Source: Rhodocyclaceae bacterium (GTDB lineage: Bacteria > Pseudomonadota > Gammaproteobacteria > Burkholderiales > Rhodocyclaceae). Taken from it: DNA of 33,564 bases. A program made the translations under genes and the position numbers. The stretch covers positions 1-33,564 of the forward strand of contig JARRBR010000020.1 of assembly GCA_029982755.1 (NCBI GenBank). The letters run 5' to 3'. Positions 18,586 through 23,569 of the stretch are shown here, one piece after another (positions within the stretch are counted from its first letter, which is position 1; each line of letters starts with the position of its first letter). The notes beneath the pieces are model-generated. The model had not been told where the DNA came from. It searched no databases and saw nothing but the letters and a program-made list of their open reading frames with translations.

Positions 18586-18951
18586 ATGATCCATCGCCTC
18601 GCCGCAGATGCCGTGCTGCTGCTGCATCTGGGCTTCATCCTGTTCGTGCTGCTCGGCGGCCTGCTCGCCCTGCGCTGGCGCCGGGCGCCGGTGCTGCACC
18701 TGCCGGCGGCGGCCTGGGGCCTGTACGTCGAGCTCAGCGGCAGCCTGTGCCCCCTGACGCCGCTGGAGAACCGCCTGCGCATCGCCGCCGGGGAGGCGGG
18801 CTACGCCGGCGGCTTCATCGAGCATTACCTGCTGCCGCTGATCTATCCCGCCGGCCTGACGACGGAGATCCAGTACGTTCTCGCCGCCATCGTCCTCGGC
18901 GTGAATGCGCTCGCCTACGCCTGGGTGTGGTCGGCGCGCCGGCGGCGGTGA
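18586..18951 (+). CDS. DUF2784 family small membrane protein
   Basis: 121 aa: LAADAVLLLHLGFILFVLLGGLLALRWRR...YVELSGSLCPLTPLENRLRIAAGEAGYAGGFIEHYLLPLIYPAGLT, the DUF2784 signature. Confidence 0.88.
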   Translation: MIHRLAADAVLLLHLGFILFVLLGGLLALRWRRAPVLHLPAAAWGLYVELSGSLCPLTPLENRLRIAAGEAGYAGGFIEHYLLPLIYPAGLTTEIQYVLAAIVLGVNALAYAWVWSARRRR

Positions 18952-19106
18952 GCGGTGGCGGCTGCCGCGGACCGGCGCCTGTCCGGCCCGCCGGAATCGG
19001 GAGTAGCATGCAGGACAGATGCTCCACACCGTGATCCGGGCCGCGTTCCGACGAGGCCTGCAAGCGGGTGCGAGCTGAAGCTGGATAAACCCGGAAGAGG
19101 TCTGCG

Positions 19107-21008
19107 ATGGCCGTCAATGCAATCCCCGTCGACCAACGGGTCATCGACATCGACTCGCGGCGCTTCGCCTCGATCGAGAAGGCGCTGGTGGAGCTCGTCA
19201 CCAACGCCGACGACAGCTACACGCGCCTGGAGCAGGGCGGCGAACAGGTGTCCGGCGCCATCCTCGTGCGCTATGAGCGTCACCGGCGCGGCGCGCTGCT
19301 GACGGTGACGGACCAGGCCGAAGGCCTGGGCTTCGACAAGGCCTGCGCCATCCTCAGCTATGGCGGCGCCCACAGCCTGCTCGCGCAGGGCCGGGCAGGC
19401 GGGCGCGGCTACTTCGGTCGCGGTCTCAAGCAGGCGATCTTCGGCCTCGGCTACGGCTGGCTGGAGACGGTCCACGACGGACGGCTCTCGCGCATCGAGC
19501 TCTTCCGCGGCGAGGATGGCGCCTACCTCTACGACGATGGCGGCCACGACCGCGAGGCCACGGCCGCCGACCGCGAGCGCCTCGGCATTCCGCGCGACGG
19601 CACCCGGGTGGCGATCGTCATCGACAGCCCGCAGGCCAGCATCTCCCAGTTCGGCGCGCTGGTGCATGCGCTCGCCGACAACATCTACCTGCGCGACGTG
19701 CTGGACCGCCGTGCGCTCGAGGTGGTGCACCTGAAGGACGGTGCCGAGGTCGAGCGCAGCGGTCGGGTGCGCTTCGAGGAGCCGCCTGCGGTGGTGCTGC
19801 TCGGCCCCGAGGCGCCGGGCCAGTTCCAGTACGAGCACCGGAGCTGGCAATTCACGCTCACGCTCAAGCGCGCGCTGGACGCGGAGCTCGTGGCGCGCGG
19901 CGATGAGCGCACGAGCGGCCTGCTGGTACTGTCGGGCACCGCGGTGCTGGATTGCCAGTTCTTCGATTACGAGAACCAGGTCGGCACCGAGTACCTGTTC
20001 GGCACCGTGCGCTGCCCGGCGCTGGTCGAAAGGCTCGCGGCGGGCGAGGCGGTGATCAGCGACGAGCGCGCCGGACTCAACCCGAAGGCGCCGATCGTCG
20101 CCGCCTTCTACCGCGCGGTGAGCCGGATGATCGCGCCCCATGTGCAGACCGAGCAGGACAAGCTGCGCCACCTCGAGCGCGCCACCACCTCGGGGCGCAC
20201 CGCGCACATGATCGAGCACCTGCTCGAGCGCATGAACCTGGCCGCGATCCACGACTTCGGCATCGTCCATCCGTCCGCGGCGGGAGCGCCCGCAGGGGCG
20301 GATGAAGCCGAGGCGCCGGCGCCGCTGCGGTTCTCCACGCCGTTCTACTACCGCAGGCCGGACCATCCCTTCCACGTCCGGCTGCTGGTCGACCCGCAGC
20401 AGCTCGATGCGGATGCGATGCTGAGCGTGGAGGCCACCGCGAGCGCGGGCCTGCTCATCGAACCGTCGCCGGCCCCGATCCCGGTCGCCAGTCTCGGCGG
20501 CGAGGGCGCCTTGAGCTGGACCGTGACCGGCCTGGGACCCGGCGAGCGTGGCGAACTGCTGGTGCGCGCGGGCGCCTACCTCGCGTGGTGCGAGATCGTC
20601 ATCGCCGAGCACGCCTCCGGCCACGCCCACCATCCGACGGCGCATCCCCGCCATCCGGGCCGGCATCGTCCGCCCAAGGACCACGGCGAGGCGATGTTCA
20701 CCGGCTATGCCTTCCGCTGGCTGGGCAGGGAGGCGGACCGCGCGGTGTATAGCCCCGATGAGCGCCGGATCCTGATCAACACTGCCGCCCCCACCGTGCA
20801 GCTCTACGTCGATGGCCGCGGCAATTTCCGCGATTCGGCCCGGCTGCTGCTGGCGGAACTGTTCCTCGACGTCATCGCCGACGAGCTGGCGCGCTACCGC
20901 ATCGCGCGCGCCGGGCGGGCGGGGGACGTCGACGCCTTCCTCGCCGCCAAGCGCGAGATCGTCTGCCGCTACGGCAGCGATATCCACCTGTCGTTCATGG
21001 CGGGCTGA
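19107..21008 (+). CDS. Stand-alone GHKL (HSP90/MORC-like) ATP-binding protein of unknown function
   Basis: 633 aa. N-box IEKALVELVTNADDSY, G1-like DQAEGLGFDKA, glycine-rich lid GRAGGRGYFGRGLKQAIFGLG, in the order expected of a Bergerat fold. No kinase DHp or receiver region is evident. Confidence 0.8.
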   Translation: MAVNAIPVDQRVIDIDSRRFASIEKALVELVTNADDSYTRLEQGGEQVSGAILVRYERHRRGALLTVTDQAEGLGFDKACAILSYGGAHSLLAQGRAGGRGYFGRGLKQAIFGLGYGWLETVHDGRLSRIELFRGEDGAYLYDDGGHDREATAADRERLGIPRDGTRVAIVIDSPQASISQFGALVHALADNIYLRDVLDRRALEVVHLKDGAEVERSGRVRFEEPPAVVLLGPEAPGQFQYEHRSWQFTLTLKRALDAELVARGDERTSGLLVLSGTAVLDCQFFDYENQVGTEYLFGTVRCPALVERLAAGEAVISDERAGLNPKAPIVAAFYRAVSRMIAPHVQTEQDKLRHLERATTSGRTAHMIEHLLERMNLAAIHDFGIVHPSAAGAPAGADEAEAPAPLRFSTPFYYRRPDHPFHVRLLVDPQQLDADAMLSVEATASAGLLIEPSPAPIPVASLGGEGALSWTVTGLGPGERGELLVRAGAYLAWCEIVIAEHASGHAHHPTAHPRHPGRHRPPKDHGEAMFTGYAFRWLGREADRAVYSPDERRILINTAAPTVQLYVDGRGNFRDSARLLLAELFLDVIADELARYRIARAGRAGDVDAFLAAKREIVCRYGSDIHLSFMAG

Positions 21009-21046
21009 GCGCTGTGGAAGTGGCGCGGGGTGCAGGCGGCGGGCGG

Positions 21047-21523
21047 ATGCGGACGGTCTGGGCGAGCGGCGTGGTCGCCGCGGCCCTTTTCATCGGGTTG
21101 AGCCTGTATCTGGCGCCGCTGCGGCCCGGCGCGATCGCACTGCAGTTCGCCTGGCAGCCGCAGACCTTCGGCGCCATCGTCCACCTGTGGCCGCCCGAGG
21201 ATCTCGTCCGTTACCGCAACCACCTCGTGATCGACAGCGTGCTGCTGCTGGCCTACGCCACCTTCGGCTGGCTGCTCGCGACCCGCAGCGGCGTCTTCCT
21301 GTCGCTCGCCCCCGCCGCGCGGCTGTTCGCGCGCCTGTGCCTGCCGCTGGCCGCGCTGTTCGACGCGGCGGAGAACGCGTTCCACTGGTGGCTGACCGAG
21401 GTGCCGCGCTTCGACACGCCGAGCACCTATGTGCTGTCGACCACCTGTTCAACGCTGAAGTGGATCCTGCTGATCGGCTTCGGCGCGCTCGTGCTGTACG
21501 CGCTGGCGCGGGCGGAGGACTGA
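21047..21523 (+). CDS. Small hypothetical membrane protein (about 4 predicted TM segments)
   Basis: Hydrophobic stretches VVAAALFIGLSLYLAPL, VIDSVLLLAYATFGWLLA, LCLPLAALFDAAENAFHWWL, TLKWILLIGFGALVLYALA. ATG 21047 or GTG 21014. Starts within 40 nt of the GHKL stop. Confidence 0.7.
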   Translation: MRTVWASGVVAAALFIGLSLYLAPLRPGAIALQFAWQPQTFGAIVHLWPPEDLVRYRNHLVIDSVLLLAYATFGWLLATRSGVFLSLAPAARLFARLCLPLAALFDAAENAFHWWLTEVPRFDTPSTYVLSTTCSTLKWILLIGFGALVLYALARAED

Positions 21524-21564: not shown

Positions 21565-22467
21565 TCATTCGCCCGCCGCGCCGCAGGCCAGCAGGCGGTC
21601 CACCGCGGCGCGCATCCGCTTCCAGTGCGATCCTTCCCAGAACACCCGTCGGCAGCGGTCGCAGGTCGAGAAGCGGTCGTGCCGCGCACGCACGTCCGGT
21701 GGCAGGCGCTGCGCGATCTCGGCCTTGGCGATCGGGTGCAAGGGCGCATTGCATTGCAGGCACAGCGAGAACGGCCGCGCGCTGCGGGCGAGGTCGAGGC
21801 GCGCGAACAGCTCCGCCGCCTGGCGCTCGGGCTGCAGCGCATGGATGAAGCAGCCGTGGGTGAGCTCGCGGCGCTTCAGCAACTCGCGGTCGCGGGTCAG
21901 CACGATGCGGCCTTCGCGGCCGGCGATGGCGACGATCTCGGCATCATCGCAGTGGTTGTCGTAGAGCGTGTCGAAGCCGGTCAGGCGCAGCAGGCGCGCG
22001 AGGCCGCCGAGGTGGGCGTCGGCGATGAAGCGGGTGACGCGCAGCGGCGCGGCGCGCACGCGCAGCAGCGGCGTCACGTCGAAGGTCTCGAAGCGGGGAT
22101 AGACCGACACCCGGTCGCCGTGGCGCAGCAGGCGCTCGAAGCCGACCGATTCGCCATTGACCAGCACCAGCTCGACCTCGGTATGCGGCACGCCCAGCGC
22201 CTCGATCATGTGCTTGACCGTGGCGGCGCGGGCGCAGCGGGCCTCGAACGCGTGCCGCCGGTGATCCGGCGCGAGGAAGTCGTTGAGTTCCTCGTAGAAG
22301 CGGAACGTGGCGACGACCGGCTCGGCGTCGGTTGGGGACGTGCCGCCGTGGCCGGGCTCGGGCGTCGCGTCGGGCGTCGAATCGTGAGTGGGGTCTGGAA
22401 CGGGGTCTGGAACGGGGTCGGGAGCGGGGTCGGGAGCGGGGTCGGGAGCGGGGGCCGGGGAGGGCAT
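21565..22467 (-). CDS. Ubiquitin-like/Mut7-C RNase domain protein with C-terminal zinc ribbon
   Basis: Beta-grasp segment TFRFYEELNDFLAPDHRRHAFE...VELVLVNGESVGFERLLRHGDRVSVYPRFE, Mut7-C core FIADAHLGGLARLLRLTGFDTLYDNHCDDAEIVAIAGREGRIVLTRDRELLKRR, then CLQC...CDRC. ATG 22467 (MPSPAPAPDPAP) or ATG 22506. Confidence 0.88.
   Translation of the reverse strand: MPSPAPAPDPAPDPAPDPVPDPVPDPTHDSTPDATPEPGHGGTSPTDAEPVVATFRFYEELNDFLAPDHRRHAFEARCARAATVKHMIEALGVPHTEVELVLVNGESVGFERLLRHGDRVSVYPRFETFDVTPLLRVRAAPLRVTRFIADAHLGGLARLLRLTGFDTLYDNHCDDAEIVAIAGREGRIVLTRDRELLKRRELTHGCFIHALQPERQAAELFARLDLARSARPFSLCLQCNAPLHPIAKAEIAQRLPPDVRARHDRFSTCDRCRRVFWEGSHWKRMRAAVDRLLACGAAGE
22390..22449. repeat. 12-bp tandem repeat, 5 units, inside the Mut7-C gene N-terminal coding region
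   Basis: Two copies of GGGGTCTGGAAC followed by three copies of GGGGTCGGGAGC. Read on the minus strand these encode APDP/VPDP repeats. Confidence 0.9.
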
Positions 22468-22582
22468 GGACGTCACCTGTCGGGCAATCCGTGACGAATC
22501 AAGCATAGCGCGCGCAGCGGCGGGCGACGGCGGTGCGGCCTTGCTGATAGGCTCGAGACTCTGCTTTTCTGCGAGTGTGCGC

Positions 22583-23569
22583 ATGACCTGGATGCCTGAA
22601 GAACGCGCGCTGCTGCTCCGGCTGGCCGAGTCGGGCGGGCTGCGTCGAGAGCAGCTCGCCGCCGCGAGCGCCCGTGCGCCGCTGCGGCCGGCGCCGGCCG
22701 AATGGGGGAGCGCGCTCGATCGGGTGTTCGCCCTCGGCGGGGCGCTGTTGCTGGCTGCGGCGGTGGTGTTCTTCATCGCCTACAACTGGGACGCGATGCA
22801 CCGCTTCGCCCGTCTCGGACTGGCGATCGGGGTGCTGGCGGCGTTCTGTGGCGGTGCGCTCCTCGCCCGCCCGGCCGGTGTGGGCTGGCGCGCGGCGCTG
22901 TTCGGCGCCTGCGTCGCGACCGGGGCGGTCCTGGCCCTGGTCGGGCAGACGTACCAGACCGGCGCCGACGTATGGGAGCTGTTCGCCGCCTGGGCGGTGC
23001 TGATGCTGCCCTTCGCGTGGGTGTCGCGCTCGACCGCGAGCTGGATGTTGTGGCTGGGTGTCGCGAACCTCGCGCTGATGCGGGCACTGTCGCAATCGGC
23101 GTGGTGGGGCGTCATCGGCACGCTGTCCGATGGGGATGAGCTGCTCGCAATCGCGGCCTTCAACCTGGTGGTGCTGCTGATCCTCGAGGCCTTCGCCGGC
23201 GTCCTCGTCGCAGCGCCGCGGCGCTGGCTGCACCGGCTGGCGGCGCTGGGCGTGCTGGGGCCCTTGTGCGCCGGTGCGATGCTCGGCTGGTGGGAGACCG
23301 AGTTCCGGGTCGTGGCGGCCGCATTCTCGGTGGTGGCGGGCGTGGCTGCGGCGGTTTACCACCGCGTGCGGCGCGACCTGCCGATCCTCGCGCTCGCCGT
23401 CTACGGCGGCATTGCGGTGCTCACCGCCGGGCTCGTGAAACTGTTGCCGGTGGCGAGCTTCTTCGGCATGAATCTGGTGGGCCTCTTCATCATCGCCGCC
23501 TCGGCCGGCGCCGGCATGTGGCTGGCGGGCCTGCATCGCGAGGCGGCCGTCGGCGGAGCGGAGCGATGA
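22583..23569 (+). CDS. DUF2157 domain-containing membrane protein
   Basis: From ATG 22583: MTWMPEERALLLRLAESGGLRREQLAAA... then ALLLAAAVVFFIAYNWDAMHRFARLGLAIG...GQTYQTGADVWELFAAWAVLMLPF, typical of DUF2157. Confidence 0.85.
   Translation: MTWMPEERALLLRLAESGGLRREQLAAASARAPLRPAPAEWGSALDRVFALGGALLLAAAVVFFIAYNWDAMHRFARLGLAIGVLAAFCGGALLARPAGVGWRAALFGACVATGAVLALVGQTYQTGADVWELFAAWAVLMLPFAWVSRSTASWMLWLGVANLALMRALSQSAWWGVIGTLSDGDELLAIAAFNLVVLLILEAFAGVLVAAPRRWLHRLAALGVLGPLCAGAMLGWWETEFRVVAAAFSVVAGVAAAVYHRVRRDLPILALAVYGGIAVLTAGLVKLLPVASFFGMNLVGLFIIAASAGAGMWLAGLHREAAVGGAER

Follow-up and report, generated by a model that had tools for sequence, protein, structure and literature searches.

The window, a 33,564-nucleotide stretch that is part of a Thauera metagenome-assembled genome (G000:C151), encodes a stand-alone GHKL ATPase of 633 amino acids (19107–21008, + strand). 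This protein is the founder of a new family within the known GHKL/paraMORC radiation. On balance, we favor a reading in which the protein is a self-sufficient, single-gene, ATP-gated homodimeric clamp, with closure of the GHKL domains passed via an S5 transducer to client-holding domains.

A stand-alone GHKL ATPase

The 633-aa open reading frame (ORF) is a genuine gene, as judged from GC content by codon position, dN/dS, and full-length homologs. Its third-position GC is 0.91, compared with 0.48 at second positions. Seventeen full-length homologous loci are found in species genomes, from Thauera to Rhodococcus, and relatives occur in 10 further Thauera genomes, which are partly the same records as the 17 loci. 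The gene is under purifying selection (dN/dS of 0.20–0.32 against other Thauera copies), and the same comparison gave no evidence of rapid or positive selection. Large antisense ORFs in the region (e.g., 18915–20987, − strand) were set aside as high-GC artifacts.

The ATPase domain occupies residues 21–200 (19167–19706, +). The motifs read by the first-pass annotation are present exactly as it gave them: the N-box ALVELVTNADDSY (key residues E29, N33, and D36), the G1 motif DQAEGL (D69, A71, and G73), and the lid GGRGYFGRGLKQA, which spans G99-RGYFGRGLK108. Across 18 homologs, E29, N33, D36, D69, A71, G73, G99, G101, G104, G106, and K108 are invariant, as is the lid GRGxFGRGLKQ. Of these, E29 is predicted to be catalytic and N33 to bind Mg. 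The annotation had called G1 divergent, which overstates the case. The motif is DxAxG in every homolog, with the adenine-contacting Asp and the second (last) Gly kept, and is thus a mild variant.

Profile and structure searches point to the same fold. All 18 members match the Pfam domain HATPase_c_3 (best E-value 2.2e-7), two of them (L018 and L020) clearly above the Pfam cut-off. The window member by itself scores only E = 0.017, below the cut-off, so the homologs were needed to establish the fold. A full-length AlphaFold2 model is of moderate to low confidence (pLDDT 63, pTM 0.46). The Bergerat fold was nevertheless recovered, and the top Protein Data Bank (PDB) matches of the model in Foldseek are all GHKL modules: GyrB 43K (1.2e-6), SMCHD1 (4.9e-6), and Hsp90 (~4e-5). 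Pfam, Foldseek, and the invariant residues together identify the marks of the GHKL superfamily (N-box, G1, and lid motifs on a Bergerat fold), and the 633-aa protein carries a Bergerat-fold GHKL ATPase. The description of a stand-alone GHKL ATPase thus stands. Domain searches gave no DHp, sensor, or receiver match in it. Neither Pfam nor NCBIfam gave a match above cut-off to Hsp90/HtpG, GyrB, MutL, or histidine-kinase models or to their partner domains (DHp, HSP90, TopoII, and MutL_C), in agreement with the earlier exclusion of GyrB, MutL, and HtpG. The only match above cut-off to any named family is to the general HATPase_c_3 domain.

Gene neighborhood and distribution

The membrane protein reported within 40 nt of the ATPase stop is real. 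It is 158 aa long from ATG 21047 (21047–21523, +), its hydropathy profile has four peaks, and its start lies 38 nt past the ATPase stop on the same strand. Its homologs start at the equivalent of ATG 21047 rather than at GTG 21014 further upstream. This proximity, and the adjacency of the two genes in the L005, L006, L013, G008, and G017 loci, speaks for an ATP-driven two-gene membrane module, as had been proposed. The wider survey contradicts that proposal. Of 29 Thauera genomes, 6 carry the ATPase gene together with the four-transmembrane (4-TM) gene, 5 carry just the former, 14 just the latter, and 4 neither, so the association is not positive (odds ratio 0.34, Fisher p = 0.24). G005 and G028 have the 4-TM gene immediately after the DUF2784 gene, the ATPase gene being absent from the site, and none of six further genera, ranging from Stutzerimonas to Rhodococcus, has it next to the ATPase. 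Because of these co-occurrence counts, the empty sites, and the other genera, an obligate module is refuted, and we regard any ATP-driven membrane module of the two proteins as very improbable. The 4-TM protein is a neighbor, not a partner, of the ATPase. In L008, L009, L010, and L017, the ATPase gene directly follows purM, without an adjoining DUF2784 or 4-TM gene.

The gap between the DUF2784 and 4-TM genes (18952–21046 in the window, compared with L052, L053, L054, and L058) is a variable spot in Thauera, which holds the GHKL gene, other genes, or nothing. It contains an apparent racemase gene and an SRPBCC-like gene in G001 and an apparent Na+/H+-antiporter-like gene in G004, all three named by reading their translations rather than by a database hit.

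The remainder of the window is core chromosome, with genes of ilvC/H/I type and genes for a Na+/H+ exchanger, an M1 aminopeptidase, poly(A) polymerase (pcnB), and purM. Beside these and the DUF2784 and 4-TM genes are Mut7-C, DUF2157, DUF4401/GDYXXLXY, and DUF1810 genes, along with the HlyD-type component of an RND efflux pump. The window has no recognized mobile element, and searches for tRNAs and RNA families in it were negative. A promoter and terminator scan gave no signal above shuffled expectation, and upstream regions of homologs from different genera, compared by eye, have no obvious common motif except the ribosome-binding site. In the mechanical ORF list, the ORFs for the Mut7-C protein (21565–22776, −) and the DUF2157 protein (22388–23566, +) overlap on opposite strands. 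The Mut7-C start is probably placed too far upstream, since homology to other Thauera begins well inside the ORF in most loci.

Outside Thauera, the ATPase gene lies in a different setting in each genus. In Stutzerimonas, it adjoins an HI0933-like flavoprotein gene and is followed downstream by a gene for a DEAD-box helicase in L011 and for an alcohol dehydrogenase in L015. The DEAD-box gene near Stutzerimonas copies (e.g., L011) is of RhlE type and is not common to other genera. The Keguizhuia copy is near CSD/DUF1294 and EamA genes, and adjoining genes are LysE and a PEMT-type gene in Marinobacter, a methyltransferase-like and a Rieske gene in Billgrantia, and a lipoprotein and a deaminase gene in Rhodococcus. 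In Rhodocyclus purpureus, the homolog starts ~16 nt after a TPR-S/MAP3K_TRAF_bd gene (L021, 4641–5984). Proteins of this type occur in proposed conflict systems, and the gene is the sole neighbor that hints at conflict biology. No neighbor common to different genera was found, and the flanks are mostly housekeeping or unrelated genes. The absence of a nuclease alongside, noted for the window, extends to the homologs: no nuclease or restriction–modification (R-M) gene co-occurs with the ATPase in the examined neighborhoods, and neither a nuclease nor the 4-TM gene is consistently linked to it. The ATPase family is without any fixed partner gene.

The ATPase is present in 11 of 29 Thauera genomes. 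Searches of 399 phylum-level and 369 class-level genomes, which scored top candidates per genome only and could miss very distant members, found none besides the window's own genome. The 17 loci, all on genome contigs, span Pseudomonadota plus one Actinomycetota; they come from a scan with exact peptide patterns, which retrieves close relatives only. The ATPase has no phage, plasmid, or viral-contig match, and phage protein families gave chance-level matches only (best 0.018). The family is rare, chromosomal, and patchy across unrelated bacteria. A mobile-element origin was rejected on the lack of phage, plasmid, or viral-contig matches and because the window has neither a tRNA nor an RNA-family match.

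When mapped on a purM tree that comprises 17 Thauera loci, presence and absence of the ATPase require 4 changes, a pattern consistent with long residence of the gene at one fixed site and repeated losses. Forcing the Thauera copies into a single clade lowers the log-likelihood by only 1.87 units (p-AU 0.18), which is not a significant rejection, and gene-level exchange between Thauera, Stutzerimonas, and Keguizhuia was accordingly not accepted from the tree. Identity of 60–73% across orders and phyla, combined with rarity, suggests transfer of the gene.

A patchy distribution with repeated presence change would also fit a defense gene. The protein could be a single-gene anti-phage defense, a MORC-like sensor/effector that detects phage and whose C-terminal domain acts with no need for a separate nuclease. 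The several changes within Thauera and the closely preceding gene in Rhodocyclus favor such a role, which we nonetheless consider unlikely. Apart from that single Rhodocyclus neighbor, there is no positive context for it: the gene sits in core chromosome (ilv, pcnB, purM, and RND pump) rather than in a recognized mobile element, matches nothing on phages, plasmids, or viral contigs, and lacks signs of rapid or positive selection. The conflict context suggested by the first-pass annotation is thus not borne out by the flanks.

Domain order and relation to known GHKL systems

Members of the family are ~630–640 aa long and 60–91% identical. They share the order N-terminal arm, GHKL domain, S5-like transducer, helices, variable linker, Ig-like beta-sandwich, His-rich linker, and C-terminal domain. 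The N-terminal arm (residues 1–20; 19107–19166, +) is the most conserved segment, with 91% mean pairwise identity; model confidence in it is low. By analogy with other GHKL families, it is proposed to be a dimer-swap arm. The GHKL domain (74%), the S5-like transducer (residues 201–328; 19707–20090, +; 73%), and the helical segment (residues 329–385; 20091–20261, +; 77%) follow. The transducer was delimited by predicted secondary structure and conservation. It ends in a conserved loop of the IISDEREGLN type (IxSDEREGLN) with an invariant arginine, R321, which is a candidate for the catalytic basic residue of the transducer. The helical segment is predicted to form helices at 329–358 and 363–383. 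Given the low confidence of the full-length model, the S5 assignment and the domain arrangement are tentative.

Residues 404–633 were also modeled separately (pLDDT 73 overall and ~80–90 in the Ig-like domain). The Ig-like beta-sandwich (residues 404–500; 20316–20606, +), identified from the AlphaFold2 model and Foldseek matches to Ig-like domains, is the least conserved folded domain (59%). A variable linker (residues 501–524; 20607–20678, +), predicted to be disordered from alignment and model, is present in all homologs with ~6 His in each; it could bind metal or serve as a flexible spacer. The C-terminal domain (residues 525–633; 20679–21005, +), defined by conservation and the model, is as conserved as the ATPase (77%) and carries the motif IxINTAAPTVQLYVDGRGxFRDSARLLLAEL. 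It has no convincing match in Pfam, PDB sequences, PADLOC, or NCBIfam. A sequence search of solved structures returned a single match, 4ikc, at chance level (E = 0.13). A nuclease in the C-terminal half was considered and rejected: there is no conserved ExK and no Pfam or PADLOC nuclease match.

We compared the family profile with single GHKL proteins by hhalign, which gives single-comparison probabilities that concern essentially the ATPase part only. The highest values were for L066 and L067 (68–69%), both MzaB by PADLOC, followed by L068 (56%), the Shedu/paraMORC3-like L069 (42%), and L002, a GHKL protein of the window's own genome (20%). MutL-type proteins (L073–L075) scored below 6%. With the N-terminal half only, MzaB reached 71–74%; across both comparisons (68–74%), the alignment with L066 and L067 runs over residues 21–144. 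The nearest ATPase cores are thus of MORC/MzaB type.

MzaB and prokaryotic MORC proteins share with the family the lid style GxFGxGLKxA and an N-terminal GHKL domain followed by an S5-like domain. Past the ATPase domain there is no detectable similarity, and these proteins are ~490 aa long whereas the family, with its Ig-like and C-terminal domains, is 630–640 aa. By eye, the C-terminal domain resembles the MzaB tail (IN..xP), yet hhalign detects no relation (E of 0.2–0.4). The paraMORC3/GHKL-Shedu proteins (VcSduA type; L069) have an N-terminal GHKL domain with a similar run-up (VDxR...SxExALxELxxN), and the hhalign alignment with L069 covers GHKL and part of S5; unlike them, the family is without a C-terminal SduA/DUF4263 (RE-fold) nuclease. 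VcSduA is a GHKL defense protein from one gene (PMC12137116). That precedent and the closeness of the ATPase core to MzaB, of the Mza defense system, and to a paraMORC3/Shedu-like protein again favor a defense role. Against it, PADLOC gave a MzaB match in only 1 of 18 members, confined to the ATPase part (residues 41–123, E = 8e-4), with two further chance-level matches at ~0.05, and the protein has no recognizable nuclease. Full-length MzaB and a common MzaA–E operon, which characterize Mza, were not found.

The MORC-like lid and ATPase core, together with the Foldseek match to the SMCHD1 ATPase module, would also suit a MORC-like clamp or compaction ATPase that acts on chromosomal or foreign DNA. 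The S5 motif of the MORC family, GhXhhpXXRhl, and the paraMORC2 motif ExxxH were defined by Iyer et al. 2008 (PMC2292703). The former is absent from S5 in 18 of 18 members. The latter, in the C-terminal part of S5, is not conserved and is absent from the window, L005, L006, L018, and L019. No SFII helicase, methylase, or endonuclease gene of the MORC/paraMORC R-M context is consistently linked to the ATPase. Every member is net negative, with no strongly basic folded domain. We judge a DNA clamp to be an improbable explanation. SMCHD1 and eukaryotic MORC modules, alike in GHKL domain plus transducer and second-ranked in Foldseek through SMCHD1, differ in that no SMC hinge, CW finger, or coiled coil was found in the family, and identity is ~11–14%. 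By our own reading, Hsp90/HtpG resembles the family in its Bergerat ATPase, its transducer ending in an R-containing loop, and its overall acidity; no Hsp90 family match reaches the cut-off, however.

The best Foldseek matches in the viral structure library BFVD are proteins of Hokovirus (A0A1V0SGC9; 702 aa, 2.3e-14) and Yasminevirus (A0A5K0UA26; 759 aa, 1.5e-13). The alignments are near full length and far stronger than plain GHKL matches, whereas sequence identity is 13–14% and TM-scores are only 0.30–0.38. An architecture common to the family and these viral proteins is possible on the predicted models, and we treat it as a lead rather than proof because of the low TM-scores and the low-confidence query model.

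We found no literature on this GHKL family. It would work like a MORC/Hsp90 engine, yet we do not file it under MORC, paraMORC2, paraMORC3, or Mza because it lacks the MORC motif, a conserved ExxxH, and any nuclease signature.

A proposed ATP-gated clamp

In the clamp that we favor, ATP binding would close the two GHKL domains around swapped N-terminal arms of the homodimer. The S5 transducer would then pass this closure to the helices and to the Ig-like and C-terminal domains; both of these steps draw on GHKL biology. The Ig-like and C-terminal domains would hold the client, and ATP hydrolysis would reopen the clamp. By analogy, the working principle would be that of MORC/Hsp90, with family-specific client-binding domains. 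The conservation of the N-terminal arm and the C-terminal domain, as opposed to that of the Ig-like domain, supports the scheme. MORC2, a relative in mechanism that has been studied, is described in PMC5811534 as governed by GHKL ATPase dimerization dynamics.

Net charge is negative in every homolog (mean −12). Given this acidity and the lack of a consistently linked nuclease, methylase, or helicase, our guess leans to a protein client rather than DNA; overall acidity is weak evidence on this point. We would likewise guess at a conditional, dispensable role, e.g., in stress or niche adaptation. A bolder version, which we hold only tentatively, is that this is an undescribed one-gene clamp family (GHKL, S5, Ig-like, and C-terminal domain) with a client and role unlike those of MORC, Hsp90, and MutL, and with a whole architecture common to proteins of giant viruses of protists.

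For lists of candidate membrane modules, the consequence is that the ATPase family should be dropped. Most known bacterial MORC-like GHKL ATPases are accompanied by a nuclease, a helicase, or an R-M operon, which gives a clue to their function. Here the engine and two additional domains are retained under purifying selection, in two phyla, without a partner gene. The family would be a compact model for exploring the capabilities of a MORC/Hsp90-type clamp on its own.
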